Source of the DNA: an uncultured Bacteroidota bacterium
Lineage (GTDB): Bacteria > Bacteroidota > Bacteroidia > Bacteroidales > 4484-276
DNA: 33,408 bases
NCBI GenBank assembly: GCA_903944895.1
Contig: CAJATL010000113.1
Location: forward strand, 1-33,408
Direction: 5' to 3'
A model generated the notes under the pieces. That model saw only the letters and a program-made list of their open reading frames with translations. It had not been told where the DNA came from and ran no database searches. Numbering within the stretch: position 1 is the stretch's first letter; every line of letters starts with the position of its first letter. The translations under genes were made by a program, and so were the position numbers. Shown here one piece after another: positions 9,735-26,938 of this stretch.

Positions 9735-9763
9735 GCTTTTTGATGAGAATAAATTAATTGAGA

Positions 9764-10395: not shown

Positions 10396-10930
10396 GTAAA
10401 TGATACATTGGCTTACCATCCAACCCTTAGGATAGAATGTAAAACCCAACAAAGCTTTCAGCTTGTTATTTAGGTGATCATCCATTTTAATTTTTAATTA
10501 CTGTCGACTGGCTGTAACTATTTATCCCCAACCTGGAATAAATAATAGCTCTTATCATATTATATTACCGTCCTTAATTCCATTCCTGAAATCAGCAACA
10601 GGCCTTTTATTATTATTGTTCGAATTCGATACTACCTGTTCTAATACCCTTTAGATGTTAGGCGAAACAAGGATTTCAGCAGCAAAAACTGTAGTCTGCA
10701 TTTCTTTTTTACTGCAAAATAAAGCTTTTCACTACTGACCGACAAGAATATCATGAATTTGCTGAATGCGTTGTTATTATTACGTCCCTACGGGATAACA
10801 TTAATACTTAATAACAACATTAAACCACCTTAAATAAATTCTTTAAATCATTTCAAAAACCCAATATTAACAGGCTTTTTAGATACATTTAAAAATAATC
10901 CATGTAAAGCAATTTAATAACAAAATTAAC
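10396..10930. other. gene-free spacer at the left margin of the integrative element
   Basis: About 535 bp without a credible open frame. A weak hairpin (AACAAAGCT/AGCTTGTT, 10448-10467) may end the MORN-repeat transcript. A short TCCC-TAC-GGGA palindrome lies near 10783-10794. The left attachment site of the element should lie in or near this interval, but I found no repeat of it at the right side, and no tRNA gene is present. Confidence 0.5.
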
Positions 10931-10960
10931 TTGCTATTTCAAATTGTGTGCGTATTTTTG
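10931..10960 (+). promoter_or_regulatory. promoter of the integrase gene
   Basis: TTG at 10931-10933, a 19-bp spacer and TATTTTTG at 10953-10960 form a complete Bacteroidetes -33/-7 pair. It overlaps a possible GTG start at 10948, so the ATG at 10993 is the better start. Confidence 0.6.
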
Positions 10961-10992
10961 TGCGTAAATTCATTCACACTAATACTAATATT

Positions 10993-12291
10993 ATGTCTTA
11001 TTCAATCCGTTTTTATACTGACATGCGCAAAGATAGTACAGGAAACCCAAAAGTTAAAAATGTACCTATCAGATTTTCATTTACTGGTGATGGAATCAGG
11101 ATAATGTCCACCACAGGCCAAAAACTTGAAAACATTAACCAATGGAGTAAAATAGGCCGCAACTACAAAGCAAGTGTCGCCAATGCTTCCGACAAAAATA
11201 AAAAGCTGGAGGATTTTGCCAAAAGTATCGAAAAAATTTATCTAGATGCAAAAAAAGCAGGAATAAAATTTAATCTGGAGTATTTGAGGACGGCATTACT
11301 TGAAAAAAAACAGCAGAAAGAAGCAGAAACCACACCGGAATCATTTTATGATTTATTCGACAGGTTCGTTACTGAACAAAAAGTAAAAAACTCCTGGACA
11401 ACCGGAACTATAAATTTATGGATTGTCCTAAAAAATAAATTCATCGAATTTGAATCAAAGCAAAAGAAAAACTACAAAATTGAAATCTCAAAAATTGATG
11501 AAGATTTTTTACAAACCTACCTTAAATTTTTGCTCGAAAAGGACTACAAAAACAGCTACATAAAAAAAACATTAAAGCTGACATTTTGGTTTTTTAATTG
11601 GTGCAGAACAAAAGGAATAGAATTTCCTTATGATTATTCTAAATTCAAATTTAAAGGCAATACGCCAAAGGCCGGGGCTAATATCAGACCGTTAACGATG
11701 GAACAGCTTTTGTACCTTTACAGGATGCCAATACAAAATTTAGAGTTGTCACAGGTTCGCGATGTGTTTTGTTTTTCATGCTTTACGGGATTGAGATATT
11801 CAGATTTGAAGAACCTTAAAAAGGCTGATATTTCCGAAAACAAAGAATTCATAAAACTAATTACCATTAAAACCAGCGAGCCGCTGTTAATCCCTTTGGT
11901 TAAATTTGCCAGGGAAATTCTATCGAATTATGAAAATACCTTTTCTAAAATGGCTTTGCCTGTTTTCTATCAGATAAAATATAACCACCATTTAAGGGAA
12001 CTTGGAAAACTTGCAGAATTTAACGAGGAAATACCTTCAGTAAATTTTAGCGGAAACAAACGAATCGAAATCACCTTCAAAAAATGGGAGCGGTTAACTT
12101 CTCACGTCGGGCGGCAAACCTTCATAACAAATGCAATTTTCCTGGGTATGCCAGGCGAAGTAGTAAAAGATCTTACAGGCCAAAGCAGTGATGAGATGCT
12201 TAGGATTTATTATAAAATACTCGATAAACAGAAACTTGCTGAAATGGCTAAATTTGAGCAATACGATAATAAAATATCAAATGGTGTTTGA
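10993..12291 (+). CDS. tyrosine recombinase / phage-type integrase
   Basis: 432 residues from the ATG at 10993. An N-terminal arm-binding domain (about 1-105: MSYSIRFYTDMRKDSTGNPK, rich in basic residues) and a SAM-like core-binding domain (about 110-225) precede the catalytic domain. Catalytic residues: Arg268 (FTGLRYSDL), Lys near 293 (TIKTSE), His371 and Arg374 (SHVGRQTF), and nucleophile Tyr406 (RIYYK). The usual second His of the GHSS motif is Gln397 (TGQSSDEM). It would catalyse site-specific integration and excision of the element whose replication genes follow. It has its own promoter and a strong terminator, so it is transcribed alone. The in-frame GTG at 10948 lies inside the promoter and is rejected. 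Confidence 0.9.
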   Translation: MSYSIRFYTDMRKDSTGNPKVKNVPIRFSFTGDGIRIMSTTGQKLENINQWSKIGRNYKASVANASDKNKKLEDFAKSIEKIYLDAKKAGIKFNLEYLRTALLEKKQQKEAETTPESFYDLFDRFVTEQKVKNSWTTGTINLWIVLKNKFIEFESKQKKNYKIEISKIDEDFLQTYLKFLLEKDYKNSYIKKTLKLTFWFFNWCRTKGIEFPYDYSKFKFKGNTPKAGANIRPLTMEQLLYLYRMPIQNLELSQVRDVFCFSCFTGLRYSDLKNLKKADISENKEFIKLITIKTSEPLLIPLVKFAREILSNYENTFSKMALPVFYQIKYNHHLRELGKLAEFNEEIPSVNFSGNKRIEITFKKWERLTSHVGRQTFITNAIFLGMPGEVVKDLTGQSSDEMLRIYYKILDKQKLAEMAKFEQYDNKISNGV

Positions 12292-12315
12292 TCCATTTGG
12301 CCTTGACTTTTGCAC

Positions 12316-12344
12316 AAGCCTTGCAGCAATGCAGGGCTTTTTTT
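12316..12344 (+). terminator. strong intrinsic terminator after the integrase gene
   Basis: A 10-bp stem (AAGCCTTGCA with TGCAGGGCTT) closed by a GCAA tetraloop and followed by TTTTTTT starts 24 nt after the integrase stop. It insulates the tandem-repeat array downstream. Confidence 0.85.
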
Positions 12345-12370
12345 ATTCACATCAGTAAAACGATTAATTT

Positions 12371-12785
12371 GTCCTATGAAAAATTCCATCACAAAAACGT
12401 GCCTATTGTCCTATGAAAATATTTCGTCACAAAAACGCGCAATTTGTCCTATGAAATTATCCCGTCAGTTATTTAACCAATTTGTCCTATGAAAATATTT
12501 CGTCAGTTATTTGACCAATCTGTCCTATGAAAATATTTCGTCAGTTATTTGCAAGTTTTGTCCTATGAAAACATTACGTCACAAAAACGCTGAAATTGTC
12601 CTATAAACGCTTTTCGTCAGTTAAATCGTCATTTTGTCCTATGAACCTACCTTAAGGCTTGCTAAAATAATGCTTTTCTTATCAGTTAATCGTACGTTTT
12701 GTCCTATTTGAACCAACCTACCAAAGCCGCCTGAATCGCTTCTTTTCTCATCAGTTAATCGGAAGTTTTATCCTTTTTGCACCGG
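12371..12785 (+). repeat. 38-bp-period tandem array of GTCCTATGAA units (iteron-like)
   Basis: GTCCTAT-type units start at 12371, 12408, 12446, 12484, 12522, 12560, 12598, 12636, 12701 and (as ATCCTTT) 12770. The spacing is 37, then six times 38, then 65 and 69 bp. Each unit begins GTCCTATGAA, has ATATTTCGTCA about 11 bp in, and then one of two tails, CAAAAACG or GTTATTT, before an AT-rich end. The last complete units carry an extra 27-31 bp in the middle. The array is gene-free and lies between the integrase terminator and the excisionase-like gene, where iterons of an origin, recombinase arm sites or a nucleoprotein scaffold would be expected. It is not a CRISPR. Confidence 0.85.
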
Positions 12786-12844
12786 ACTTACAATAGCGAA
12801 TTTCAATAGTTTTCTTTATAATATTCATAAAGCTACATGTATTT

Positions 12845-12882
12845 AATGTAATTGATATTAAGTTAATTACATTTTCAAAATG
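12845..12882. promoter_or_regulatory. two overlapping palindromes upstream of the excisionase-like gene (operator candidate)
   Basis: AATGTAATT (12845-12853) and AATTACATT (12865-12873) form perfect 9-bp arms around an 11-bp spacer. ACATTTT-C-AAAATGT (12868-12882) is a second perfect palindrome sharing the right arm. They lie about 90 bp before the ATG at 12969, a likely site for a dimeric regulator. The AATTACA half-site resembles the AATTACACTA octamers found at 14884-15123. Confidence 0.5.
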
Positions 12883-12968
12883 TGTCCTTTTTTTTCGGTG
12901 TTTCTTAGCCCACTTTTGCCAACAAATACAAAATAATAGGAATTTATAAAAACTTAAATCAGATAAAC

Positions 12969-13229
12969 ATGAATGAATTAATCTTAATCGGGAAACAAGA
13001 GTACAAGCACCTCACCGAACAGTTGAGCCAGATAGTAGGTATTTTGAACAATACCGAAAAAAGCGAACCTATGGCGGATTATTTCACGCCTAAGGAATTC
13101 CAAAAGAAATTTGGCATTTCACAGGTAACACAATGGAAACTTCGGAAAGCTGGGAAACTGCCGTATCGAACCATTGGAAAACAGATTTTCTACAAACTTT
13201 CTGAAATCGAAAGTTTCTGCAAATCTTAA
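12969..13229 (+). CDS. excisionase-like helix-turn-helix DNA-binding protein
   Basis: 86 residues. An N-terminal helical lead (MNELILIGKQEYKHLTEQLS) precedes a MerR/Xis-type winged HTH (HTH_17): DYFTPKEFQKKFGISQVTQW (first helices), KLRKAGKLPYRTIGKQIFYK (wing) and LSEIESFCKS. Such proteins serve as recombination directionality factors or local regulators in Bacteroidetes mobile elements. It is the first gene of a rightward run with the small unknown gene (12 bp downstream) and the helicase. The palindromes at 12845-12882 lie in its promoter region. Confidence 0.75.
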   Translation: MNELILIGKQEYKHLTEQLSQIVGILNNTEKSEPMADYFTPKEFQKKFGISQVTQWKLRKAGKLPYRTIGKQIFYKLSEIESFCKS

Positions 13230-13241
13230 AAAATCGGCCAA

Positions 13242-13625
13242 ATGATTAAACCCTCTTATCTTAAAAGGTTAATGAACAAGATAATTCCAGCCCAAACAGC
13301 ATTGGAAATTTTGAAAAGAAAAATTGACCAAAGCGGGATACTTTCAAAAAGCGAATTGAAGCAACTCCTCAATGGACAATTAACAGAAAATTACCCAAAA
13401 TTCAGCCACTTTAAAGCACCGGTAACCAATACAACACCGACAAAAGAATTAGACATTTTACAGCTTCACCAGGCCATCTCAGGCAATTATTATAAAAAGG
13501 TTACTGAACAGTTCAGGGCGTTGGAACCAGGGGAAGCAAAGGGCGAATTTAAGAAAAACCGTTTCGACCATTGTATAAACTTAAAACATGAAATAACGTG
13601 GATCCAACTGACGATTTGCAAGTAG
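13242..13625 (+). CDS. small protein of unknown function in the replication module
   Basis: 127 residues, no signal peptide or membrane segment. It starts 12 bp after the excisionase-like gene, and its 3' end overlaps the helicase start by 28 bp, which suggests coupled translation. The sequence is basic and helical (PSYLKRLMNKIIPAQTALEI, then LSKSELKQLLNG). No family is recognised. The position just before a P4-type helicase suggests a replication accessory factor or an N-terminal primase-like piece of a split protein, but that is inference. The last 10-15 residues, in the overlap, may not be functionally important. Confidence 0.5.
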   Translation: MIKPSYLKRLMNKIIPAQTALEILKRKIDQSGILSKSELKQLLNGQLTENYPKFSHFKAPVTNTTPTKELDILQLHQAISGNYYKKVTEQFRALEPGEAKGEFKKNRFDHCINLKHEITWIQLTICK

Positions 13626-14881
13626 CGGAAGCAATATTGAAAGAAAATCAGATTTTCTTTTGCAATCAATGTTTTTATCAATTTGACGAAGATTTGCACC
13701 TATGGGTAATCATTGACGAAGGAACTATCAAAGGAATAATTCTCAAAAAAATCGGGAATAAGTACAAACAATCTACTGTTAGAAACATCATCGATATTAT
13801 GGGCGTAACTTCAAAAAAGAAAGAGACGGACATAAATCAGAATGAAAGAATGGGCCAGATAAACTGCCGGAATGGATTCTATGACATCAATTCCGGGGTC
13901 TTGAACCTTCATTCAGAAGAAACAAAAGCGTATTACTCTACAAATCAATTTCAGGTAAATTACTCACCAGGGGCGACCTACAACAGGTGGTTGAAATTTG
14001 TCGATGAAATATTCGAACCTGATAGCGATAAAGAAGATAAGAAAAAATTATTGCAGGAAATTATGGGTTTGTGCCTCACCATGGAAACTAAATTCGAAAA
14101 AGCGTTTTATTTTCTCGGGAATGGGCAAAATGGTAAATCCAAAGCCATTACTGTTATTGAGACAATTTTAGGTAGTTCAAATTTTAGTTCATTGGACTAT
14201 GAACAGTTAGGGCAACAATTTCAAACAATAAAGTTGTTGGGGAAGCTGGCAAATATCAGCAGCGATATTGACTTTAAGAATAAAGCGTCAACAGGCGTTT
14301 TTAAAAAGATTACATCAGGAGATAGCATCTTTGCTGATGTTAAAAATCGCAGTGGTATTACATTCAAGGCCTACTGTAAATTGATTTTTGCCGCCAACAA
14401 GCTACCACACACCACAGACACCTCAAAAGGTTACTTCCGTCGTATTATGATCCTCACGTTCAACAGATCGTTTGAAGGAAAGGAAAAGGATCAGGATTTA
14501 GAAAAAAAGCTGTTGGCAGAAGTAGATGGGATTTTCCTTTGGGCTATTGATGGGTTGCAACGTCTGAAGGCGAACGATAGACTTACCACTCCGAAAAGCT
14601 GCGAAGAAGAACTTGCAAAATATCTGGAAAACTCAAATTCAGTAGTAAGTTTTGTAAACGAGCAGTGCGAAATTTCAGAACAAAAAAATACCTGGACAGA
14701 ATACCAGGAATTTTATGATGCTTACAGAAAATACTGTAATGAATCCGGGCTTCACAGCTTTAAGAAAACAGAAATGAAGCTGGAAATTATTGATCGGCAA
14801 TTTAAAGGAAGGGTTACAATAGTCAGATGGGGGAGTGGGTCGAGATTTCAAAACATAAAAATTATAAAATTACCTCAATAA
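13598..14881 (+). CDS. P4/D5-type phage-plasmid replicative helicase (SF3-like AAA+)
   Basis: 427 residues with a GTG start overlapping the previous gene. An N-terminal D5_N-like region (about 85-165, MGQINCRNGFYDINSGVLNL) is followed by the helicase core: Walker A GNGQNGKS at 174-181, LANISSDIDF at 217-226 (Walker B region), KLIFAANKLP at 261-270 (sensor 1) and Arg281-Arg282 as finger candidates (GYFRRIMIL). This is the arrangement of phage P4 alpha and related D5/DUF5906 proteins of integrative elements and satellites. It would unwind the element origin as a hexamer. At 427 residues it lacks a full N-terminal primase domain; the primase-like function seems to reside in the separate toprim protein at 15182. 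The repeat cluster between the two is the obvious origin candidate. Confidence 0.85.
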   Translation: MDPTDDLQVAEAILKENQIFFCNQCFYQFDEDLHLWVIIDEGTIKGIILKKIGNKYKQSTVRNIIDIMGVTSKKKETDINQNERMGQINCRNGFYDINSGVLNLHSEETKAYYSTNQFQVNYSPGATYNRWLKFVDEIFEPDSDKEDKKKLLQEIMGLCLTMETKFEKAFYFLGNGQNGKSKAITVIETILGSSNFSSLDYEQLGQQFQTIKLLGKLANISSDIDFKNKASTGVFKKITSGDSIFADVKNRSGITFKAYCKLIFAANKLPHTTDTSKGYFRRIMILTFNRSFEGKEKDQDLEKKLLAEVDGIFLWAIDGLQRLKANDRLTTPKSCEEELAKYLENSNSVVSFVNEQCEISEQKNTWTEYQEFYDAYRKYCNESGLHSFKKTEMKLEIIDRQFKGRVTIVRWGSGSRFQNIKIIKLPQ

Positions 14882-14883
14882 AA

Positions 14884-15123
14884 TTACACTAATTACACTA
14901 ACTATATATATCTAATTCATTATCAATACTATAATAACGAAAAAAGTAGTGTAAAACATAGTGTAAAACTAGTGTAAAAGGTGTAAAATTGAAAAAAAGG
15001 GTTCATGTTTATTCCAACGAAATTACACTAATAATACACGAAATTACACTAATTACACTACCAATTACACTACGTAAATAAATGTATTTCAATTGATTAA
15101 GTGCCATAGTGTAATTAGTGTAA
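14884..15123. repeat. cluster of TTACACTA octamers in both orientations (candidate replication origin)
   Basis: Eleven exact octamers lie in 240 bp. Forward TTACACTA at 14884, 14893, 15023, 15044, 15053 and 15065; reverse TAGTGTAA at 14947, 14959, 14970, 15107 and 15116. Near matches lie at 14980 and 15034. Three pairs have identical 9-bp spacing. The order is forward-reverse-forward-reverse, giving large-scale inverted symmetry. The cluster lies precisely between the P4-type helicase and the primase-like gene and is AT-rich, as expected for an iteron origin recognised by the helicase/initiator; P4 has similar repeats in ori and crr. Confidence 0.8.
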
Positions 15124-15181
15124 ATTTTTTCAAGTTTATTTATTTATAGAAATGATAATTACCTCTTTAAACAGAAAAACA

Positions 15182-16033
15182 ATGAACATTTCACAGCTGA
15201 AAGACAGCATCAGTGTAGCCGACTACTTAAGCTCTATCGGAATGAAACCATCACGAAAATATTCCGGTCATAACTGGTATCATTCACCATTTCATCAGGA
15301 TAAAAACCCATCATTCGTGGTAAACATAAAGAAAAACCTTTGGTTTGATCTTTCATCAGGTAAAGGTGGCGATTTAATCGAGATGGTAAAGATGTTACAC
15401 CAAACAGATGTTGCAGGAGCAATTGTCGCGCTCTCAGGCAATGATCCAGTAAAACCTGTTTATCCTTTATGCCTGCAAAATTCTACTGCTGTCCAGGGGG
15501 GTAAAATTGAGATTAGTCAGATGCGACCCATCAACAGCCCAGCGTTGATACAATACCTTCTGGATCGCAGGATACCGTTATGTATTGCGCGGAAATATTT
15601 AAAAGAGGCTCATTACACCACAGGACAAGAAAAGCGGTATTTTGCTCTTGCGTTTCAAAATGACCATGGTGGATTTGCTTTGCGTAATAAATTCTGGAAA
15701 GGCTCAAACAGCCCTGCGTACTTTACCACAATCCCTGGCAAATCGAATAGCCAGATCAATCTTTTTGAGGGTGTATTCGACTTCCTTTCTGCCCTGGTAT
15801 TTTTTAATACAGATACACCAAAGTTCGACTGCCTCATTTTAAATTCTACCTCGCATTTAAATAATGCTTTATCCTTACTTCATGCCTACCAACGTGTAAA
15901 TCTATTCCTGGATAACGACAAAACCGGTTACCAGTGCACAGCAAAAGTCTGTGAAGCTCATCAAAATGTGATTGACTATGCTTCTAAAATCTACCCGGAG
16001 CATAATGATTTTAATGATTTCCTGAAAAGTTGA
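15182..16033 (+). CDS. toprim-domain primase-like protein with degenerate CHC2 zinc finger
   Basis: 283 residues from the ATG at 15182; an upstream ATG at 15152 would add 10 residues. The N-terminal region follows the CHC2 primase pattern: YHSPFHQDKNPSF near 33-45 and LWFDLSSGKGGDLIEMV near 53-69. However, the zinc-binding Cys residues are replaced (SPFH for CPFH, DLSSG for the CxxC segment), as is frequent in primase-like proteins of Bacteroidetes mobile elements. A toprim domain follows: LFEGVFDFLSAL with catalytic Glu near 195, and LFLDNDKTG with the DxD pair near 244-246. It would prime replication of the element together with the helicase at 13598. An alternative is a mobilisation-linked toprim protein. 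Confidence 0.82.
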   Translation: MNISQLKDSISVADYLSSIGMKPSRKYSGHNWYHSPFHQDKNPSFVVNIKKNLWFDLSSGKGGDLIEMVKMLHQTDVAGAIVALSGNDPVKPVYPLCLQNSTAVQGGKIEISQMRPINSPALIQYLLDRRIPLCIARKYLKEAHYTTGQEKRYFALAFQNDHGGFALRNKFWKGSNSPAYFTTIPGKSNSQINLFEGVFDFLSALVFFNTDTPKFDCLILNSTSHLNNALSLLHAYQRVNLFLDNDKTGYQCTAKVCEAHQNVIDYASKIYPEHNDFNDFLKS

Positions 16034-16554: not shown

Positions 16555-19389
16555 ATGCCTAACCAAAACCCCGAACAAAAAGCAAGAGACAATATCGACA
16601 ACGCCCTTGAGCTGAGTGGTTGGATTATCCAGGGGATCAGGCGAGTAAATCTTCATGCAGGAATTGGTGTTGCAGTTAAAGAATACCTGACCGATGTTGG
16701 CCCTGCCGACTACGTTTTATTTGTTGATGGCAAACCCTGTGGAGTGGTTGAAGCAAAACGGGAAGAAGAAGGGCATAAATTAAGTGTTCATGAAGACCAG
16801 ACCGAAGGCTATGCTACGGCTAAACTCAAGCATCTCAAAAATGAGCCATTACCCTATGTTTACATCAGTACAGGCGAAATAACCCGTTTTACCGATTTTA
16901 CCGACCCAAAGCCTCGGGCAAGAGAAGTTTTTAGTTTTCACCGGCCAGAAACATTGCGAGACTGGCTTAAAAAAGATAAATCGCTCAGGAAAAGATTGCA
17001 TGATTTACCTGTCCTGAAAACTGACGGTTTACGGGAATGCCAAATCAATGCAATTACGAATCTGGAAATTTCCTTTAAGGAAAACCGTCCAAGAGCATTG
17101 ATACAAATGGCAACCGGTTCCGGTAAGACATTCACGGCCATCACCACAATTTACCGTTTGCTGAAATTCGCTAAAGCAAAACGTGTTTTGTTCCTGGTTG
17201 ACACCAAAAACCTTGGCGAGCAGGCCGAACAGGAATTTATGGCTTTCGTCCCAAACGACGACAATCGCAAGTTTACCGAACTTTACAATGTCCAACGATT
17301 AAAATCGAGCTATATCGCCACCGATAGCCAGGTTTGCATCAGCACCATCCAGCGGTTATATTCCATTTTAAAAGGAACCGAACTGGACGAAAAAGCTGAA
17401 GAAGAAAACCCGAACGAACGGAAATACCAGCCCAAAGAAATTCCTCCGGTTGAGTACGATCCCAAAATGCCCATCGAGTTTTTCGACTTTATTGTGATTG
17501 ATGAGTGCCACAGGAGCATTTACAATTTATGGAAACAAGTGCTGGAATATTACGATGCTTTTGAAATTGGATTAACGGCCACACCCGACAAACGAACCAT
17601 TGGTTATTTTGATCAAAACATGGTGAGCGAATATTCGCACGAAATGGCTGTTGCCGATGGTGTAAATGTGGGCTATGATGTTTATACTATCGAAACAAGG
17701 ATATCCCGGCAAGGTGCCACCCTTTGGCAGGGCGAATACATCGAGCACCGGGAGCGGTTGAGCCGTAAAAAAAGGATGGAATTGCAGGATGAAGACGAAC
17801 AGTATTCAGCTCAACAGTTGGATAAGGATGTTGTAAATCCCAACCAGATCAGGACCATCATCAGAACCTTTAAAGAAAAATTGCCAATCTTATTTGAAGA
17901 GCGATACGACAAAAACGGGAATTTTGAAGTTCCAAAAACTTTAATCTTTGCCAAAACCGACAGCCATGCCGACGATATTATCCAAATTGTGAGGGAAGAA
18001 TTTGCCGAAGAAAACCGTTTCTGCAAAAAGATAACTTACACCTCCGAAAAAGACAGGAAGGATGCTGATGACAACATCATCGAAAAAGGTGAAGACCCGA
18101 AAAGTACGCTGGCCCAGTTTCGAAACGGATACCACCCGCGCATTGCTGTAACCGTTGATATGATTGCAACAGGCACGGATGTGAAACCTCTGGAATGCTT
18201 GCTTTTTATGCGCGATGTGAAAAGCAGGAATTATTTTGAACAAATGAAAGGCCGGGGCACCAGAACCATTGACCTGGATAATCTGAAAAAGGTTACACCC
18301 ACTGCCAGATTTACCAAAGACCATTTTGTGATTGTTGATGCCATCGGTGTTACTAAAACTTTAAAAACCGACAGCCGGCCATTGGAGAAAAAGCCGGGCG
18401 TGCCGTTGAAAGAATTATTGCAGGCCATTGCTGTAGGTGCCAGGGACGAAGAATTGTTTACTTCGATAGCTAACCGGTTGACCCGATTAGACAAGCAGAT
18501 TACACCAAAGGAAAAACAGAAGTTTACTGAAAAAGCTAATGGAAAAACCGTGTCACAGGTTGTAAAAGACCTGCTGAACGCTTTTAATCCGGATGTAATC
18601 GAAAATGTAGAAACACGAATCACAAATGAAAAATCCGGGGCTTCTCCTTTTGAAATTGAACAAACAGTGAAACGGGAAATGGAGAAAATCCAAAACGAAG
18701 CTGCCAGGGTGTTTACCGGTGAACTGAACGAATACATCGAAAATGTCCGAAAAGCTCATGAACAACGGATTGATATCAGCAATCCCGATGAAGTGATAAA
18801 TGTAGGCTGGGACAAAGACAACACGGAAAAAGCAAATGAACTGGTAAAAGATTTTGCTGCATGGATGGAACAAAACAGGAATGAATTAACTGCATTGCAG
18901 ATATTCTACAACCAGCCATTCCGCAGACGGGAACTCACTTACACGATGATAAAGGAGGTTTTGGAAAAACTTCTGAACGAAAAGCCTAACCTGGCTCTGA
19001 TGAACGTATGGAGGGCTTTTGCTTCGACAAGCTCTGCAACTACCGAGGTGACCGGTTCCCCAAAAACAGATTTAATGGCTTTGGTTTCGTTGATAAGAAA
19101 GATATGCGGAATTGATAGTACACTTACAGCTTACGACAAAACGGTGGATAAGAATTTCCAGGACTGGGCATTTGCCAGGCAGGCCGGCAATGCTCCGAAA
19201 TTTACCGAAGAACAAATGCAATGGCTGCGAATGATAAAAGATTATGTAACAAACAGTTTCCATATCGAAAAAGATGATTTCGATTTGAATCCATTTAATG
19301 CACAGGGCGGGTTAGGGAAAATGTGGCAACTGTTTGGTGAACAGACCGATGAAATTATTAACGAATTAAATGAGGCGTTGGCGGCATAA
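16555..19389 (+). CDS. hsdR: type I restriction enzyme, endonuclease/translocase subunit R
   Basis: 944 residues, normal for the EcoEI-like HsdR group. The N-terminal PD-(D/E)xK nuclease has Asp52 (ADYVLFVDGK) and Glu66-x-Lys68 (VVEAKRE). The SF2 translocase follows: Walker A MATGSGKTFTAI at about 185-196, DECH at 316-319, GLTATPDKRT, and the later motif TVDMIATGTDVKPLECLLFM with MKGRGTRT. The C-terminal EcoEI_R region (about 680-930) carries the long helical part. It would cut DNA distally after ATP-driven translocation, in complex with HsdM and HsdS. It overlaps hsdS by one base (TAATG), so the two are coupled. It is unusual that hsdM is not adjacent: it lies 6 kb downstream beyond four other genes. 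Confidence 0.97.
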   Translation: MPNQNPEQKARDNIDNALELSGWIIQGIRRVNLHAGIGVAVKEYLTDVGPADYVLFVDGKPCGVVEAKREEEGHKLSVHEDQTEGYATAKLKHLKNEPLPYVYISTGEITRFTDFTDPKPRAREVFSFHRPETLRDWLKKDKSLRKRLHDLPVLKTDGLRECQINAITNLEISFKENRPRALIQMATGSGKTFTAITTIYRLLKFAKAKRVLFLVDTKNLGEQAEQEFMAFVPNDDNRKFTELYNVQRLKSSYIATDSQVCISTIQRLYSILKGTELDEKAEEENPNERKYQPKEIPPVEYDPKMPIEFFDFIVIDECHRSIYNLWKQVLEYYDAFEIGLTATPDKRTIGYFDQNMVSEYSHEMAVADGVNVGYDVYTIETRISRQGATLWQGEYIEHRERLSRKKRMELQDEDEQYSAQQLDKDVVNPNQIRTIIRTFKEKLPILFEERYDKNGNFEVPKTLIFAKTDSHADDIIQIVREEFAEENRFCKKITYTSEKDRKDADDNIIEKGEDPKSTLAQFRNGYHPRIAVTVDMIATGTDVKPLECLLFMRDVKSRNYFEQMKGRGTRTIDLDNLKKVTPTARFTKDHFVIVDAIGVTKTLKTDSRPLEKKPGVPLKELLQAIAVGARDEELFTSIANRLTRLDKQITPKEKQKFTEKANGKTVSQVVKDLLNAFNPDVIENVETRITNEKSGASPFEIEQTVKREMEKIQNEAARVFTGELNEYIENVRKAHEQRIDISNPDEVINVGWDKDNTEKANELVKDFAAWMEQNRNELTALQIFYNQPFRRRELTYTMIKEVLEKLLNEKPNLALMNVWRAFASTSSATTEVTGSPKTDLMALVSLIRKICGIDSTLTAYDKTVDKNFQDWAFARQAGNAPKFTEEQMQWLRMIKDYVTNSFHIEKDDFDLNPFNAQGGLGKMWQLFGEQTDEIINELNEALAA

Positions 19390-20603
19390 TGAGCAAAGTC
19401 AAAGACATACCAAAGCATTGGCAAATCAAAAAGTTAGGCGAAGTGTGCAAAATATTGCCTGGTTATGGCTTTCCATTAAATTTTCAAGGTTCAAAAGCTG
19501 GCAAATATCCTTTTTATAAAGTTGGCGACATTTCAAAAAATGTAAAAGCGGGAAATAGGCAACTTGAGCTTTGTGATAATTTTATTGACGAAGAAACATT
19601 ACTGAAAATTAAAGCCATACCATATCCAAAAAACACTATTGTTTTTGCAAAAATCGGTGAAGGGTTAAAGTTAAATAGAAGAGCGATTATTAAAACTCCC
19701 GGTATTGTTGACAATAATGCAATAGGTCTTAAAGCAATTGAAAATATCTGTAGTGACTTATTCCTGTATAATTTTCTAACAACTGTTAAACTTGAAGATT
19801 ATTCTAAAGCAACTACGGTTCCTTCTGTCAGAAAATCGGAAATCGAAGATATTCCTTTTCTTCTTCCCCCGCTCCCCGAGCAACTCGCCATCGTTTCCAA
19901 AATTGAAGAACTACTCAGTGATCTGGAAAACGGCAAACAACAACTGCAAATCGCCCAACAGCAATTAAAAATTTACAGGCAAAGTTTGTTGAAATGGGCG
20001 TTTGAAGGAAAACTCACCGACAAAAATGTGAAAGATGGTGAATTACCGAAGGGGTGGAAGTGGGTGAAAATTGAAGATGCAGCATTGTCATTAGACAACA
20101 AAAGAAAGCCCATCAACAAAAGTGAAAGACTTAGTCGAGTTGGAGACTTTCCTTATTATGGAGCAAATGGAAGGGTAGGATGGATAAATGATTTCATTTT
20201 TGATGAAACATTAATTTGTGTTGTTGAGGATGAAACATTTACTGGCAGAATTATCCCTTTTTCTTATAAAATTACTGGTAAAACTTGGGTCAATAATCAT
20301 GCGCATGTATTAAAACCAAAGGATAATACAAACCTCGATTTCCTTAATCATCAATTAAGCTTTTATCCTTTTTTACCATTGACAACCGGCACAACTGGCA
20401 GAAAGAAATTAACTAAGAGCGCTTTAATGAATGCTCCCATAAAACTGTGTTCCTTGGTAGAACAGCAACTCATCGTTGACGAATTAGAAAGCAAACTCAC
20501 AGTTTGCGATAAAATAGAAGAAACCATCAGCCAAAGTTTGCAGCAAGCCGAAACTTTAAGGCAGAGCATTTTAAAAAAGGCGTTTGAGGGGAAACTAATT
20601 TAA
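19389..20603 (+). CDS. hsdS: type I restriction enzyme, specificity subunit S
   Basis: 404 residues with the standard two-half layout. The first target-recognition domain is at about 10-150. The central conserved coiled coil is at about 155-205 (LPPLPEQLAIVSKIEELLSD, LKIYRQSLLKWAFEGKLTDK). The second TRD is at about 210-345, and the distal coiled coil at about 350-404 (EQQLIVDELESKLTVCDKIE, AETLRQSILKKAFEGKLI). The TRDs decide the bipartite target; it cannot be predicted here. The start overlaps the hsdR stop. The last 90 bp of the gene reappear in the scar at 23134-23219, including an exact 28-bp copy of 20518-20545. Confidence 0.96.
   Translation: MSKVKDIPKHWQIKKLGEVCKILPGYGFPLNFQGSKAGKYPFYKVGDISKNVKAGNRQLELCDNFIDEETLLKIKAIPYPKNTIVFAKIGEGLKLNRRAIIKTPGIVDNNAIGLKAIENICSDLFLYNFLTTVKLEDYSKATTVPSVRKSEIEDIPFLLPPLPEQLAIVSKIEELLSDLENGKQQLQIAQQQLKIYRQSLLKWAFEGKLTDKNVKDGELPKGWKWVKIEDAALSLDNKRKPINKSERLSRVGDFPYYGANGRVGWINDFIFDETLICVVEDETFTGRIIPFSYKITGKTWVNNHAHVLKPKDNTNLDFLNHQLSFYPFLPLTTGTTGRKKLTKSALMNAPIKLCSLVEQQLIVDELESKLTVCDKIEETISQSLQQAETLRQSILKKAFEGKLI
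20518..20545 (+). repeat. 28-bp direct repeat, copy 1 (inside the hsdS 3' end)
   Basis: Exact copy of 23137-23164; it begins AAGAAACCATCAGCC. The two copies flank the MBL and SIR2 genes and lie within a longer diverged match that runs to both stop codons. Confidence 0.95.
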
Positions 20604-20613
20604 AACTTACGAT

Positions 20614-21858
20614 ATGACACGTGAAATAGAAGCTAATTTTGAATTTCATCCTGTTGGCCAAGGGTGTTTTTACACTGGTACGATTAAAAATGGCGGTAGA
20701 ATAAAAAATAAGTTCCATTTCGTATATGATTGTGGAACAAAATCGAAGATGTTTTTTCTCGATAAGGAAATTAAGAAGTACAAAAACCAATTGGAAAATA
20801 ATTCGATTGATCTCCTTATTATTTCGCATTTTGATGAAGATCACGTAAATGGTGTAATTGATTTGCTGAAAAATACTCATTGTAAGCGGCTGGTTATACC
20901 ATATTACCACCCCCTTCAACGATTGCTACTTTTCGCTTTAAGTTCTTCGTTGGACGATGAATATATCTTAATGTTAATAGATCCAATTGCATACTTTGCA
21001 GATGAAAATCGCTTCAAAATTGATGAAATAGTAGTTATTGCAGGAAATGAAAATAGCGATCCCCCGCAAAGTACAGAACTTTTACCTTTATCCCCTTATG
21101 ACAACGAGCAAAGGCGCAATTTTCCTGAAAGACTTGAATTAGAAAGTATGGAAGGGAAAAATGACTATGACCTTGAAACACGTATTTTACAACACGAAAA
21201 CAGATCTACAGGGTATCGAAATACATTTTTTCAAGAAGTCCCTGGCAAGATGATAATTTCAGGTAAAGTTTGGGAATTCGTTTTTTATTTGCGCGACTTT
21301 ATTGAGACCCAAACAATCAGGGCGTTTAAAATTGAAATTGATCAATTATTAAATGGTAATTCCCTGAAAATGCTTTTCAACAAAGAATTTAGAGATAAGG
21401 TTAGAGAAATCTATAAATTAAAATTTAAAGACATTAATATTACTTCTTTGTGCATGTTTCATGGTCATCTTTTTCATCATAAAATTGCGGAATATATCAT
21501 GACTGGTCATTATCTTCATGAGTATTGTGAATTTGAGAAGCATTTAGGTACATTATTAACCGGCGATATTAATTTGTCTTCTACTGAATGGCTAAACCAT
21601 TTTACAAAGTATTATCAATCCTTTTTGCCTCGTGTTAGAATTTTTCAAGTGCCTCATCATGGTTCAAGGAAAAGCTGGAATTTCAAAAATTTTAATGGTA
21701 TAAATACTTTTAGTACTTATGTAATAAATCATGGAGTGGGTAGATCATCTCATCCATCGGCTGATGTTATTTTGAATATAGAAAATAATTGTCAAAATGG
21801 GAGAATATTCCTCAATAATGAAGTCAATGAGATGCGTTATACTGAGCTATATTTATAA
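20614..21858 (+). CDS. metallo-beta-lactamase-fold hydrolase of the ComEC/Rec2-like type, defence-associated
   Basis: 414 residues, no signal peptide or membrane helices. MBL signatures: ISHFDEDHVNG (the HxDxDH motif as His72, Asp74, Asp76, His77), LLTGDIN near 314-320, VPHHGSRKSW near 346-355, and INHGVGRSSHPS near 371-382. The HHGS and terminal SHPS pattern is that of ComEC-type MBL domains, some of which act on nucleic acid. The middle insert of about 150 residues (180-310) is unlike the standard fold. It starts 10 bp after hsdS and precedes a SIR2-like gene. I know no named defence system with exactly this pair, so a nuclease or signal-hydrolase partner of the SIR2 protein is inference. 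Confidence 0.8.
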   Translation: MTREIEANFEFHPVGQGCFYTGTIKNGGRIKNKFHFVYDCGTKSKMFFLDKEIKKYKNQLENNSIDLLIISHFDEDHVNGVIDLLKNTHCKRLVIPYYHPLQRLLLFALSSSLDDEYILMLIDPIAYFADENRFKIDEIVVIAGNENSDPPQSTELLPLSPYDNEQRRNFPERLELESMEGKNDYDLETRILQHENRSTGYRNTFFQEVPGKMIISGKVWEFVFYLRDFIETQTIRAFKIEIDQLLNGNSLKMLFNKEFRDKVREIYKLKFKDINITSLCMFHGHLFHHKIAEYIMTGHYLHEYCEFEKHLGTLLTGDINLSSTEWLNHFTKYYQSFLPRVRIFQVPHHGSRKSWNFKNFNGINTFSTYVINHGVGRSSHPSADVILNIENNCQNGRIFLNNEVNEMRYTELYL

Positions 21859-21975
21859 ATGTGATTTTGCAATCGCTGGGGTTCGACTACTTAATTTAAC
21901 AGATTTTCACAGGAGTTAAAATAAAGGCAAATTTTTTTTAGGAGGGTATTTTTAAAGAATATTTTAGGTATAAAT

Positions 21976-23010
21976 ATGATGAAAGAAAGTTATACAGGCA
22001 AAAAAGCGTTTTTTTTAGGGAATGGAATTCATAGGACTGAAAATAATAATGGAATCTCATGGGGTAAATTATTGCAACAAATATCAACATACTTCAGTAT
22101 TGATACTGACTTGAAAAACGAGCTGAAACCTTTCCCACTGACTTTTGAAGAGATGTTATATGCTAAGGAAGGTAGAAATGAATTTCAGAGCAAATTAAGG
22201 AACCTTAAATCTAAAATTTCCCTAACTCTTTTAAACAATGAAAATAAGTTGGTGGATAATGAAATTCACATAGGATTTATGAAAAGTGGTATAAAAGAAA
22301 TTATCACGACTAATTATGACTATAATCTAGAATCATCAATCATCGCAAATTTCCTAGCAACAAAAACGGAATATTCAATAAATAATCTTGAATCAAAACA
22401 TAGTTTATATCGTGGTTATAAAGTTGAAAACATAACAGTCAGACACATTCATGGGGAGCTAAAGCACAACAGAAATATCGAAATCTCTGACAAGAGTTAT
22501 CCTGAAGAATCAATTATGATTGGATTTAAGCACTATTCAGATTACTTTGCAAAAATCCAAAGTATAGTTAAAGGTGATAGCGGTAAACAAAGTGAAACTG
22601 AGAAAAAGAGTTTGTTGGTTAGGATAAGGGATAGTGACACCAATAAAATCTGGACTGATTTATTTTTTACCCACCATTTAATCATTGCAGGTTTTTCTTT
22701 AGATTTTTCAGAAAACCATTTATGGTGGCTTTTAATTCAAAGAGAAGAACTAAAAAGGAAAAGCAATAAATTGGATGTTCGTATCAACAATGAAATTACT
22801 TTTTGCATTCCAATACTTCCAAAGGATTCAATTTCTTACAAAATAAACACTGAGGAGGATTTCAATAAACTTTATAAAAATAAACTTAACGAACAAAAAA
22901 ATAAAGGAGTTACCGATATCTTAAAATCCTTAAAAGTAAACATCAACCAAATTGAATGTAAAAATTATCGGGAATTTTATCTTAAGGTAATTGATTATTA
23001 TAGAAACTAA
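21976..23010 (+). CDS. SIR2-like (SIR2_2-type) protein, probable NAD+-consuming defence effector
   Basis: 344 residues. SIR2 Rossmann motifs: AFFLGNGIHR near 11-20 (nucleotide-binding GN), EIITTNYDYNLE near 108-119 (Asn113, Asp115), RHIHGEL near 156-162 (His159 in the catalytic position) and LIIAGFSLDFSENHLWWLL near 235-253. The same set occurs in SIR2 domains of Thoeris ThsA, DSR and other abortive-infection systems that deplete NAD+. There is no membrane segment. Two Met codons at 21976 and 21979 are both possible starts. A 117-bp gap separates it from the MBL gene without an evident promoter or terminator. The hsdM'/hsdS' scar begins 8 bp after its stop. Confidence 0.82.
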   Translation: MMKESYTGKKAFFLGNGIHRTENNNGISWGKLLQQISTYFSIDTDLKNELKPFPLTFEEMLYAKEGRNEFQSKLRNLKSKISLTLLNNENKLVDNEIHIGFMKSGIKEIITTNYDYNLESSIIANFLATKTEYSINNLESKHSLYRGYKVENITVRHIHGELKHNRNIEISDKSYPEESIMIGFKHYSDYFAKIQSIVKGDSGKQSETEKKSLLVRIRDSDTNKIWTDLFFTHHLIIAGFSLDFSENHLWWLLIQREELKRKSNKLDVRINNEITFCIPILPKDSISYKINTEEDFNKLYKNKLNEQKNKGVTDILKSLKVNINQIECKNYREFYLKVIDYYRN

Positions 23011-23018
23011 AAAATATA

Positions 23019-23219
23019 ATGAGCATTAACACTTCAAGTGAAGAATCAAAAGTATGGTCATTTTGCAATCCATTCAGTGATACCGGTGTTGGTTAAGGAG
23101 AATATTTAACACAATTCTTAAATGGCAACAAAATAAAAGAAACCATCAGCCAAAGTTTGCAGCACATTGAAATATTAAGGCAAAGTATTCTGAAGAAAGC
23201 ATTTATTGGAAAATTATAA
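23019..23219 (+). pseudogene. in-frame hsdM'-hsdS' chimeric scar with one nonsense codon
   Basis: The frame from ATG 23019 reads SINTSSEESKVWSFCNPFSD then TGVG, a TAA stop, then GEYLTQFLNG. This aligns residue by residue with the start of HsdM at 25442 (SNNTSSIVSKVWSFCNPLRD, VGVGYGDYLEQL), and the stop replaces Tyr26. After FLNGN the frame switches without a shift to an HsdS C-terminus, KIKETISQSLQHIEILRQSI then LKKAFIGKL, matching the end of the HsdS at 19389-20603. It is therefore the remnant of an hsdM-hsdS pair whose middle (roughly 2.7 kb) was deleted in frame, later inactivated by a Tyr-to-stop change. It separates the SIR2 gene from the AAA gene. Confidence 0.88.
23137..23164 (+). repeat. 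28-bp direct repeat, copy 2 (inside the hsdM'-hsdS' scar)
   Basis: Identical to 20518-20545 in hsdS. Homologous recombination between the copies would remove the MBL-SIR2 module and still leave an intact hsdS reading frame with a near-identical end. Confidence 0.95.
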
Positions 23220-23230
23220 CAAAAGACGAA

Positions 23231-24847
23231 ATGAAAGACAAATTGAAGGACGAAGTGTTTAATTGTAAAGGATTTAAACTAATCTCTCTTGAATTGATTA
23301 ATAATACTCTAATGAGTAAGGGTAACCTGTTTTACAATTTCATTGAATCAGCGGATAAGCAAAACGAAATTTATACAACCGTTTTAATTGGAGCTAATGG
23401 AACAGGAAAAAGTAATTTGTTCCGAATAATAATCGAATTATTCAAAGAGTTAAATGATTTGGCCAAAGGTAAAACGTATTCAAGTAATGTCGATGGAAGT
23501 TTTAATTTGAAATATTCGCTGAATGGAGATATTTATGAATACACCAACATACCTGAAAGAGGTAAGTTTATGGACTTTGTTGTTTCGAATAAAGGTACCA
23601 AAACCCACTTAATGAAAAATGGGAACAGAATTGCTTTTCATGAAGCGATGTTTCCAATTGCAATAGTAGCTAACTCCATTTCCTTGACAGATAAATACCC
23701 GTTTTACAGAAAAGACACTACAAATGAAGGAGAAAAGGTAGACACTTTTTTGCAATACAAATATTTGGGAGTTAGAAATGTAGCACAAAATGCAAGTACC
23801 CGTGCATATGTGCGTAGAACCGTTGAATTCATTGTTCAGGAATATCAATCTGACGCTTTTAGAAATGGCTTAGTAAGAGCACTAAATTTTTTGGGTCTTG
23901 AAAAAGAGATTGAGATTTTTTACTACACATCAAATTCATCTAGATTTTTTAATGGGAATTTAAGTCCTGAAGGATTAGCTGTTTATTTTGATGAGATAAA
24001 TAAAAAATATCCTACACCAGAGAGCAATCCCCCATTTAAGTTAAACCACTATTTAAAGATTAAAGAAGACAAAAAGATTCTCTTCAATATTTGCAGTTTT
24101 TGTAATATGCTTTTTGATGAAAAGCGCGTCTTAAAATCAGATATCAAACACAGCATTTCCCGCAAAATAATATATAATTTATTTGATAAAAATTCCTTTG
24201 AGCAACTAAATAATGAGTTCTCACTAATTGAGCACTTGAGGCAATTAGGAATGATATCAGTACCGGAAATCAAGCTTAAAAGACAAGAGGGATATTCATT
24301 GCAGGAGAGCAGTTCAGGAGAATACCATTTTTTCTCATCAATGGTTGGTTTAATGTCAACTGTAAAAATGAATAGTTTAGTTTTTATTGATGAACCGGAA
24401 ATTAGTTTACACCCAAATTGGCAAATGAAATATCTTTCGTTCATTAGAGAATTGTTTGCTGATCCTGAGTATGCTACTTCCCATATCATAGTTGCAACTC
24501 ATTCACATTTTTTAATATCAGATTTAAAAGGAGAAAGTTCAAAAATTATTGGATTGAAAATGGCAAATGGATTTATAGAAACTGTTGCATTACCAAAAGA
24601 TATAGACACCTTCGGTTGGTCAGCTGAAGAGGTTTTATATTCCATTTTCAATGTCAGATCTACTAGAAACTCATTCCTTGAATACGACTTAACTAAACTA
24701 GTAACCATGGTTAATCGGAATTCAAAAGATTATGCGGAAATTGAAAGAATTTTAAAAAAAATATCGACACTAGTATTAAGTGACAATGATCCTCTTAAAA
24801 TATTAAAAGAGAAAGCACAAAATTATTTGGAACAAAACAATGCTTAA
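23231..24847 (+). CDS. AAA ATPase of the OLD/AAA_21 type, Septu PtuA-like
   Basis: 538 residues. An ABC/SMC-like ATPase: Walker A LIGANGTGKSN at 52-62, a signature-like SSSGE at 360-364, Walker B SLVFIDEPEISLHPNW at 382-397 and the H-loop region IVATHSHFLIS at 420-430. No Toprim or C-terminal nuclease domain is visible, which argues against OLD/Gabija GajA. The gene overlaps the HNH-nuclease gene by 8 bp. An AAA_15/21 ATPase coupled to an HNH protein is the layout of Septu (PtuA-PtuB), where the ATPase controls the nuclease. The helical middle (about 190-345) may mediate assembly. Assignment to Septu is by architecture, not by alignment. Confidence 0.8.
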   Translation: MKDKLKDEVFNCKGFKLISLELINNTLMSKGNLFYNFIESADKQNEIYTTVLIGANGTGKSNLFRIIIELFKELNDLAKGKTYSSNVDGSFNLKYSLNGDIYEYTNIPERGKFMDFVVSNKGTKTHLMKNGNRIAFHEAMFPIAIVANSISLTDKYPFYRKDTTNEGEKVDTFLQYKYLGVRNVAQNASTRAYVRRTVEFIVQEYQSDAFRNGLVRALNFLGLEKEIEIFYYTSNSSRFFNGNLSPEGLAVYFDEINKKYPTPESNPPFKLNHYLKIKEDKKILFNICSFCNMLFDEKRVLKSDIKHSISRKIIYNLFDKNSFEQLNNEFSLIEHLRQLGMISVPEIKLKRQEGYSLQESSSGEYHFFSSMVGLMSTVKMNSLVFIDEPEISLHPNWQMKYLSFIRELFADPEYATSHIIVATHSHFLISDLKGESSKIIGLKMANGFIETVALPKDIDTFGWSAEEVLYSIFNVRSTRNSFLEYDLTKLVTMVNRNSKDYAEIERILKKISTLVLSDNDPLKILKEKAQNYLEQNNA

Positions 24848-25442
24848 TATAAATACAAAAATAACACTTTCAACAGAGAGCGAATGTTATATACAAACGC
24901 TCAAGTCAAGACAAGGCGGTAACTTTACCCAAGCTTCTTGGGGCATGATTAGGAATTCGGTCAAGAATGAAATATCTGGAAAGTTGTTTGCAAATCAAGG
25001 CTTAAAGTGCGTCTTTTGTGAAAGGTATTTAATAGGTCTTGGTCATGAGATGGATCATTTTGCTCACAAGGGAGACTACCCTGAATTTACTTTTTCCCCT
25101 GAGAATATATTCTACTCATGCAAGTCTTGTAATTCACCGGAGCGGAAAGGTCAAAAAAATACTATTGATGTAAAAAAGCCTGTGTACAATAGATGTACTT
25201 TTTTAATAGTTCACCCTTTTTTTAACGATCCGACAATTGAAATAATATTTACTGACCATGATAGAATATATTTTGATAGGGTAAAGTGCACTCAACTTGG
25301 AAAAAATACGATAGATTTTTTCAGGTGGGATGATTTACTTTACTCCACAATCCGTTCAAGAACCTTAATAAATGAGAGATTGAACCCACTAACCAGCCAA
25401 GAAGAAATCGCACTTATTCAACTATCAATAGCTTACAAATAA
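24840..25442 (+). CDS. HNH endonuclease, Septu PtuB-like
   Basis: 200 residues. The HNH/zinc motif set is complete: CVFC (Cys57, Cys60), GLGHEMDHF (His69, Glu70, Asp72, His73), SPENIFYSCKSCNSPERKG (Asn89, Cys94, Cys97, Asn98, Lys103). This is the CxxC...HExDH...N...CxxCN arrangement found in PtuB-type nucleases and retron-associated HNH effectors. The ATG lies inside the 3' end of the AAA gene (8-bp overlap), and its TAA shares a base with the hsdM ATG (TAATG), so AAA, HNH and hsdM are translated as a coupled series. It would cleave nucleic acid on phage sensing. Confidence 0.85.
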   Translation: MLNINTKITLSTESECYIQTLKSRQGGNFTQASWGMIRNSVKNEISGKLFANQGLKCVFCERYLIGLGHEMDHFAHKGDYPEFTFSPENIFYSCKSCNSPERKGQKNTIDVKKPVYNRCTFLIVHPFFNDPTIEIIFTDHDRIYFDRVKCTQLGKNTIDFFRWDDLLYSTIRSRTLINERLNPLTSQEEIALIQLSIAYK

Positions 25443-26938
25443 TGAGTAACAACACCTCAAGTATAGTCTCCAAAGTCTGGTCTTTCTGTAATCCGCTTCG
25501 TGATGTTGGCGTAGGTTACGGTGATTATTTGGAACAGCTTACCTACCTGCTGTTTTTAAAAATGGCCGATGAATACAGCAAACCGCCCTATAATCGTAAG
25601 CTGAACATTCCAAAGGAATACAACTGGGAAAGCTTAACGGAACTAAAAGGGGCAGCCCTGGAAATCCATTATGTAACCTTGCTTCGTGAGTTAAGCACGC
25701 AAAAAGGAATATTGGGTCAGATTTTTACCAAGAGCCAGAATAAAATTCAGGACCCTGCCATGTTAGCGAAGATCATTGACATGATTGACAGCGAACAATG
25801 GCTGGTGATGGGTGCCGATGTGAAAGGCGATATTTATGAAAAACTGCTGGAACAAAATGCACAGGATGTAAAAAGCGGGGCAGGCCAGTATTTCACCCCA
25901 CGTCCATTGATCCGTGCTATGGTGGAATGTGTTCAGCCGCAACCCATGAAAACCATTGCAGACCCAGCTTGTGGAACAGGCGGTTTCTTTTTGGCTGCTT
26001 ACGATTTCCTGGTTTCAAACAACAAACTGGATAAAGAGCAAAACAAGTTTATCAAGCTTCAAACCTTTTTCGGGAACGAAATAGTTGCCGGAACCAGGCG
26101 ATTAGCCTTGATGAACATGTTTCTGCACAACATTGGCGACATCGACAGCGATAATTTCATTTCTCCTGCCGATGCCCTGATTGCTGCCTCACCAATTACC
26201 TATGATTATGTACTGGCTAATCCGCCATTTGGGAAAAAGAGCAGTCAGACTTTTACCAACGATGAAGGCGAACAGGAAAAGGACGATTTAACTTACAACC
26301 GTCAGGATTTCTGGGCGACCACCAGCAACAAGCAACTGAATTTTGTCCAGCATATCCGCACCATGCTCAAAACAACCGGCCTCGCTGCCGTTGTTGTTCC
26401 CGATAATGTTTTGTTCGAAGGTGGAGCCGGTGAAACAGTCCGGAAAAAGTTGATGGAAACAACCGACCTGCATACTATTTTGCGTCTGCCAACCGGAATA
26501 TTTTACGCCCAGGGTGTAAAAGCAAATGTTATTTTCTTCGACAACAAACCTGCCAGTAAAGACCCATGGACAAAGGAAATCTGGGTGTATGATTATCGGA
26601 CAAACATTCATCATACACTCAAGAAAAATCCCTTAAAACTGGACGATTTAAAAGATTTCATCATTTGCTATAATCCTGCAAACCGGTTTAAGCGAAAAGA
26701 AACTTTTAACGCTGAAACCAATCCGGAAGGTCGTTGGAGAAAATTTGCCTATGAAGAAATAATCGCCAGAGACAAAACAAGCCTTGACATTACCTGGCTA
26801 AAAGACAAATCACTTGCTGACCTCGACAACCTGCCTGACCCGGATGTGATTGCGGAAGAAATCATCGAAAATTTGGAAGCAGGCCTCGAGAGTTTCAGAG
26901 AAATAATGATAAAGTTGAGTTCAAAAGGAGCGGTTTAG
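25442..26938 (+). CDS. hsdM: type I restriction-modification system, adenine methyltransferase subunit M
   Basis: 498 residues, normal length. N-terminal HsdM_N region (about 1-130, starting VWSFCNPLRDVGVGYGDYLE), then the N6-adenine methyltransferase core: AGQYFTPRPLIRAM near 147-160, motif I DPACGTGGFFLAAYD at 174-188 and motif IV NPPFGKKSS at 260-268. It would methylate the target chosen by HsdS and form the M2S trimer needed for restriction. It is the last hsd gene, separated from hsdR-hsdS by about 4.8 kb of nested genes. The start overlaps the HNH stop by one base. Its first 25 codons have a diverged relic copy at 23019. Confidence 0.96.
   Translation: MSNNTSSIVSKVWSFCNPLRDVGVGYGDYLEQLTYLLFLKMADEYSKPPYNRKLNIPKEYNWESLTELKGAALEIHYVTLLRELSTQKGILGQIFTKSQNKIQDPAMLAKIIDMIDSEQWLVMGADVKGDIYEKLLEQNAQDVKSGAGQYFTPRPLIRAMVECVQPQPMKTIADPACGTGGFFLAAYDFLVSNNKLDKEQNKFIKLQTFFGNEIVAGTRRLALMNMFLHNIGDIDSDNFISPADALIAASPITYDYVLANPPFGKKSSQTFTNDEGEQEKDDLTYNRQDFWATTSNKQLNFVQHIRTMLKTTGLAAVVVPDNVLFEGGAGETVRKKLMETTDLHTILRLPTGIFYAQGVKANVIFFDNKPASKDPWTKEIWVYDYRTNIHHTLKKNPLKLDDLKDFIICYNPANRFKRKETFNAETNPEGRWRKFAYEEIIARDKTSLDITWLKDKSLADLDNLPDPDVIAEEIIENLEAGLESFREIMIKLSSKGAV

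Follow-up and report, generated by a model that had tools for sequence, protein, structure and literature searches.

The window, that is the whole stretch of 33,408 nucleotides analysed here, carries an operon in which all genes lie on the + strand, in the order hsdR-hsdS-MBL-SIR2-fragment-PtuA-PtuB-hsdM (Table 1). By its gene content, with hsdR, hsdS and hsdM together, the locus is predicted to encode a type I restriction-modification system, and the same-strand genes between hsdS and hsdM, which are not hsd genes and have known defence relatives, would constitute embedded defence cassettes, here called X and Y. Cassette Y contains adjacent genes for a PtuA ATPase and a PtuB HNH protein, the gene content of a putative Septu system; the NCBIfam retron PtuA/PtuB models matched them below their cut-offs. 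The MBL and SIR2-like pair of cassette X (20614-23010) matches no named two-gene system. Between the two gene pairs lies the fragment under study, which starts 9 nt past the SIR2 gene and ends 12 nt ahead of the PtuA gene. Upstream of the operon, an integrase, a P4-family primase and a DnaG-like primase indicate that it is probably carried by a satellite-like integrative element; no tRNA gene was found within the window. The integrase gene is immediately followed by a run (12347-12712) of no fewer than eight copies of TTGTCCTATGAA, spaced 38 bp apart, which resembles an iteron or protein-binding array. Elsewhere, the window contains an 860-aa open frame (28331-30913) that was without match in Pfam, PADLOC and NCBIfam, and a 168-nt direct repeat, 70% identical (30705-30872 and 32354-32521).

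Table 1. Features of the hsd operon and its upstream context, in window coordinates.
Feature	Position	Strand	Basis or remark
Tyrosine integrase, P4-family primase, DnaG-like primase	10948..16033	+	context upstream of operon
hsdR, type I restriction subunit	16555..19389	+	Pfam ResIII, EcoEI_R_C; NCBIfam type I R subunit models below cut-off
hsdS, specificity subunit	19389..20603	+	Pfam Methylase_S (E 2e-37); PADLOC Specificity_I
hsdS 3' end, copy 1 of 92-nt direct repeat	20506..20597	+	28 bp identical from 20518
Cassette X gene 1, metallo-beta-lactamase-fold (MBL) protein	20614..21858	+	Pfam Lactamase_B (3e-8); weak PADLOC LmuA / RTasMBL; NCBIfam Avs1a far below cut-off
Cassette X gene 2, SIR2-like protein	21976..23010	+	Pfam SIR2_2 at cut-off, 24.5 bits
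M' relic, hsdM codons 1-31, TAA at 23094-23096	23019..23111	+	translation, DNA alignment, tblastn
Joint between M' and S'	23112..23126	+	clear homology to neither gene
S' relic, last 30 hsdS codons and stop, copy 2 of direct repeat	23127..23219	+	translation, DNA alignment, tblastn
Cassette Y gene 1, PtuA-like ATPase (Septu)	23231..24847	+	PADLOC PtuA (7e-96)
Cassette Y gene 2, PtuB-like HNH protein (Septu)	24840..25442	+	PADLOC PtuB (7e-27)
hsdM, methyltransferase subunit; 5' end is partner of M'	25442..26938	+	Pfam N6_Mtase (1e-67), HsdM_N (5e-11)

The fragment (23019-23219, + strand) is a 67-codon frame in which the first ~31 codons of hsdM are joined to the last 30 codons of hsdS, and the reverse strand is closed across the same interval. 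Its translation reads MSINTSSEESKVWSFCNPFSDTGVG-stop-GEYLTQFLNGNKIKETISQSLQHIEILRQSILKKAFIGKL-stop. The original prediction had described an hsdM'-hsdS' fusion with a single Tyr-to-stop change, and translation, DNA alignments and tblastn indeed agreed on this. In pairwise alignment, both halves scored far above shuffled sequence: M' (23016-23111 against 25439-25536) reached 63, the top of 200 dinucleotide shuffles being 26, and S' (23130-23212 against 20511-20594) reached 81, with 31 for the best shuffle. tblastn with the window's own proteins gave amino acid identities of 70% for HsdM residues 1-33 and 80% for HsdS residues 374-403. Codon 26 of the fragment is TAA, for TAC (Tyr) in hsdM. The M' half stops near hsdM residue 31-33 and is followed by ~15 nt without clear homology to hsdM or hsdS. 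Chance similarity was ruled out by the shuffle controls and a reversed-sequence control, and no further copy of the fragment was found elsewhere in the host assembly. Judged from its sequence, the fragment is thus an hsdM'-hsdS' relic that marks a cassette boundary, and it is probably without function today.

The substitutions in the relic bear on its origin. Over 30 codons, M' and the local hsdM differ at 18 third codon positions and at 4 each of the first and second (Fisher P = 1e-5), and a weaker third-position excess was observed between S' and the local hsdS (11 third, 5 first and 3 second; P = 0.014). Since the differences in M' are mostly at third positions, the divergence arose under protein-level selection, and M' is what is left of a second hsdM that had diverged while still functional; the same excess ruled out, for M', a recent local copy that decayed neutrally. 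The similarity of M' to other hsdM 5' ends is ~66-73%, about equal to that with the local hsdM, and no particular one is nearer. The proposal that a second hsdM-hsdS pair once stood at this site was accordingly upheld as far as a second, diverged hsdM lineage is concerned; that the pair was complete is less certain, because the scar of a single illegitimate joining would look no different. An assembly chimera of two strains' loci is an exceedingly improbable source of the joint: the host assembly is indeed a fragmented draft (424 contigs), but the two ends have no sequence in common by which an assembler might have linked them, M' contains a decayed codon, and independent genomes have the same architecture.

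An M'-S' fusion was indeed found in two further loci, L017 and L025, and the cassettes differ across the three. In L017 (Aquiflexum), the order is S, a GmrSD-AlbA gene, the relic, DUF4062 and AlbA genes, and M. L092 has the first cassette of L017 at 95% amino acid identity, with hsdS immediately before it and an intact hsdM immediately after, and this intact hsdM sits exactly at the position of the L017 relic: past the first cassette, the L017 DNA matches the beginning of the L092 hsdM (z = 6.3, 0/500 shuffles) and then enters the hsdS 3' relic (7684-7767). The M' relic of L017 rests on this comparison with L092, because the similarity of this stretch to L017's own hsdM is at chance level (z = 1.2). 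The second cassette of L017 stands directly behind hsdS in seven other loci (31-38% amino acid identity), and together with the L092 arrangement this makes L017 look like S-X-M plus S-Y-M with an M'-S' joint. In L025, the M' half is 80% identical over 60 bp (z = 16) and is followed by the hsdS tail (z = 8.5), the fusion frame being open throughout. These parallels and the intact hsdM of L092 agree with the original prediction that the scar marks a cassette boundary.

Related loci were found as HsdM relatives in genome collections, and their flanking DNA was scanned for R, S and M fragments using two relic tests, tblastn with a locus's own proteins and profile HMMs with reversed-sequence controls. 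The reversed sequences produced 0 hits of ≥10 bits, the real ones 39 off-gene hits that included genes cut by contig ends; contig-edge genes, frameshifted genes and the hits in L059, discarded as low-complexity, were not counted as relics. The weakest relics accepted had E-values of 0.006-0.007 (L025, L096), L025 being confirmed afterwards on DNA. The R-S-M order with variable gaps was the rule. With "filled" meaning more than 300 bp between hsd genes, the S-M gap was filled in 103 of the 148 loci having both S and M, a non-random set chosen by similarity to the window's HsdM in which some members are closely related (e.g., L126 and L128), and the R-S gap was filled in 60 of the 121 loci having R and S. 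Relics were present in 10 of the 103 filled S-M gaps (the window, L017, L025, L065, L094 with two, L099, L112, L132, L233, and L241), where all M relics were 5' ends and all S relics were 3' ends. Relics of the hsdR 3' end were present in 11 of the 60 filled R-S gaps (L030, L032, L034, L096, L112, L125, L126, L128, L136, L145, and L238). The gaps, 328 kb in total, thus yielded 21 relic cases; in 1.4 Mb of outer flanks, only a few credible relics were found (L121, L125, L041). The window fragment, which consists of gap-facing gene ends only and is sited between cassettes, reads as a relic of this hsd gene-end type. Three of the loci (L233, L238, L241) come from a phylum drawn around a Methanosarcina genome, so that archaea are included. 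The E. coli genomes contained no close relative, just short distant hsdM matches. Plasmid records held few relatives, two of them with unrelated neighbours of the insecticidal-toxin type, and the viral contigs contained six R-S-M loci (L158-L163), with inserts in neither gap of any.

Elsewhere, the relics were mostly M' or S' alone rather than fusions: the second half was absent next to the single relics of L065, L094, L099, L112, L132, L233, and L241, and present at L017 and L025. Several loci have architectures of their own. In L094, two hsdM 5' relics (9043-9204 and 10726-11003) split three cassettes, which include BovA-like and Fic genes, within one 10-kb gap. In L065, an hsdM 5' relic (7297-7419) separates a DUF4357/GIY-YIG gene from a DarT-DarG pair. 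At 9419-9757 and 10437-10499, L097 carries an hsdR 5' end fused to an hsdS 3' end, together with a second hsdS 3' relic, and neither an intact hsdR nor an intact hsdS was found in that locus. In L041, an hsdM 3' relic (13705-13845) lies ~2 kb behind hsdM, which suggests the same process on the outer side.

The R-S gaps of two loci, which we take with L123 to be of a Chlorobium-type genus, are also informative. L126 and L128 are organized as R-X-(R5'R3')-Y-S, an hsdR 5' end being kept beside an hsdR 3' end; as both ends are kept, the site of the relic must formerly have held an entire hsdR. In L123, an hsdR 3' end runs straight into the Y of L126 and L128, with the same junction sequence; this contig starts inside hsdR, and the visible 3' part reads as an intact hsdR end. 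The R3' relics of L126 and L128 are 91-92% identical to L123, compared with 87-89% to their own hsdR. These relics are out of frame, and the in-frame state of the window relic is therefore probably incidental. The alternative, that selection keeps the frame as a small gene or leader to maintain translation from SIR2 to PtuA, would fit a joint that is open bar one stop, the short distances to both neighbouring genes and the stop-free fusion of L025. We nevertheless regard it as very unlikely: the frame is broken at codon 26, other relics are out of frame or stop-rich, and a conserved product is not evident.

Taken together, these observations make it likely that two related type I loci were fused and then lost the duplicate hsd interior, the fragment being their fossil joint. 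Both halves' identity, their position, the recurrence of such joints and the intact L092 hsdM at the relic position of L017 all support such a fusion, which is also the simplest account common to the relic-bearing loci. In the window, the starting loci would have been hsdR-hsdS-[MBL-SIR2]-hsdM and hsdS-[PtuA-PtuB]-hsdM, which may have come to lie head to tail via tandem integration or capture of incoming DNA; this arrangement would leave the order M5'-S3'. We infer a deletion that began at codon ~31 of the first hsdM and spared only the final ~30 codons of the second hsdS, the outcome being a single working hsd set with both cassettes. The short stubs would have persisted because deletions reaching further would damage the adjoining cassette genes or their translation starts. 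An unreduced S-X-M-S-Y-M array was absent from the genomes examined. The search for siblings with or without one module found none among related genomes, and the surveyed loci included no single-cassette sibling of the window's own pair. The MBL and PtuA relatives within such gaps were just 28-32% identical; SIR2 gene relatives were absent from 375 genomes of the class, and MBL relatives from viral contigs.

The same S-X-M'-S'-Y-M order could also have arisen in a single event, if a linear piece carrying an hsdS 3' end, PtuA-PtuB and hsdM recombined through homology within hsdM, while non-homologous joining attached its free end at codon ~31 of the resident gene, which implies that no second complete hsdM-hsdS pair ever stood at the site. 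The lack of clear shared sequence at the joint is what illegitimate joining predicts, and the loci with single relics (L065, L099, L132) would be accounted for as well. However, neither the shortness of the relics nor their exclusive restriction to gap-facing ends is predicted by such joining, and the R5'-R3' relic of L126 and L128 needs a whole lost hsdR; we therefore consider this route unlikely, though worth keeping in view beside the fusion and deletion of two loci.

Repeats of hsd gene ends flank both cassettes, in line with the original prediction. Around MBL-SIR2, the hsdS 3' end is repeated directly (20506-20597 and 23125-23216; 92 nt, 77% identical), the longest identical run being 28 bp, from 20518 and 23137; around PtuA-PtuB, the hsdM 5' repeats are diverged, with a longest identical run of 8 bp. 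The further claim that cassettes could be lost or swapped through these repeats is on weaker ground: the hsdS repeat could, from its 28-bp identity, drive cassette loss or swap, but the hsdM repeat probably cannot drive loss or swap, because it is too diverged to be a likely substrate, and cassette deletion variants were not seen among the loci compared. When closely related loci are compared, 253 of 378 pairs show homology beginning no more than 5 bp from the start codon of hsdM, indicating that cassettes are flush with the hsd genes and turn over exactly at gene ends. This pattern and the hsdS repeat would suit a kept recombination site, with relics serving as homology arms for cassette gain, loss and swap that spare hsdS and hsdM. 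We hold such a role to be improbable, given the state of the hsdM repeat and the missing deletion variants; moreover, relic-free loci also vary in cassettes, and there recombination inside hsdS and hsdM would be enough.

Type I operons with embedded defence genes have already been published (PMC11411939, PMC12255303, PMC4619093). TgvAB of Vibrio cholerae lies inside a type I operon (PMC11411939), as does DarTG2 in EPEC, where the gap was called a potential recombination hotspot (PMC12255303). Like these systems and the R-linked ORFs of Campylobacter jejuni, the window has unrelated defence genes between hsd genes within one operon; by contrast, in the parts of those reports available to us each is described as one insert, with no mention of hsd-end relics between inserts. 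The PtuA-PtuB pair resembles Septu in its adjacent ATPase and HNH genes, predicted with strong PADLOC matches, and differs in being embedded between an hsd relic and hsdM. As in phase-variable multi-hsdS type I loci such as pneumococcal tvr (PMC6265443), hsdS sequence is repeated within the locus; unlike in tvr, the repeat covers the last 30 codons only, without a target-recognition domain, and so cannot change specificity. The row of cassettes with short recurring sequences between them also recalls integron gene-cassette arrays, from which the window differs in that its separators are decayed coding gene ends of varying length. No IntI integrase was found beside the array, the sole integrase being a phage-type tyrosine recombinase (10948-12291). 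It is conceivable, if doubtful, that hsdR-hsdS-hsdM operons act as cassette arrays growing without an integrase of their own, in which every fusion contributes a cassette and leaves a relic separator, the relics later serving as homology arms through which single cassettes are lost or swapped. As the embedding is published and no description of hsd gene-end relics as cassette boundaries was found in the portion of the open literature covered, the relics appear to be a new feature of a known arrangement.

Embedded defence genes are known, and the relics bear on the route by which several of them enter one restriction operon, of which they would be physical traces left by the joining events. They suggest that loci with cassettes can merge and then discard their duplicated hsd genes, in archaea as well as in a number of bacterial phyla. 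From a practical point of view, such relics may provide a sequence signature for cassette boundaries, and hence for new defence systems in operons of this kind.
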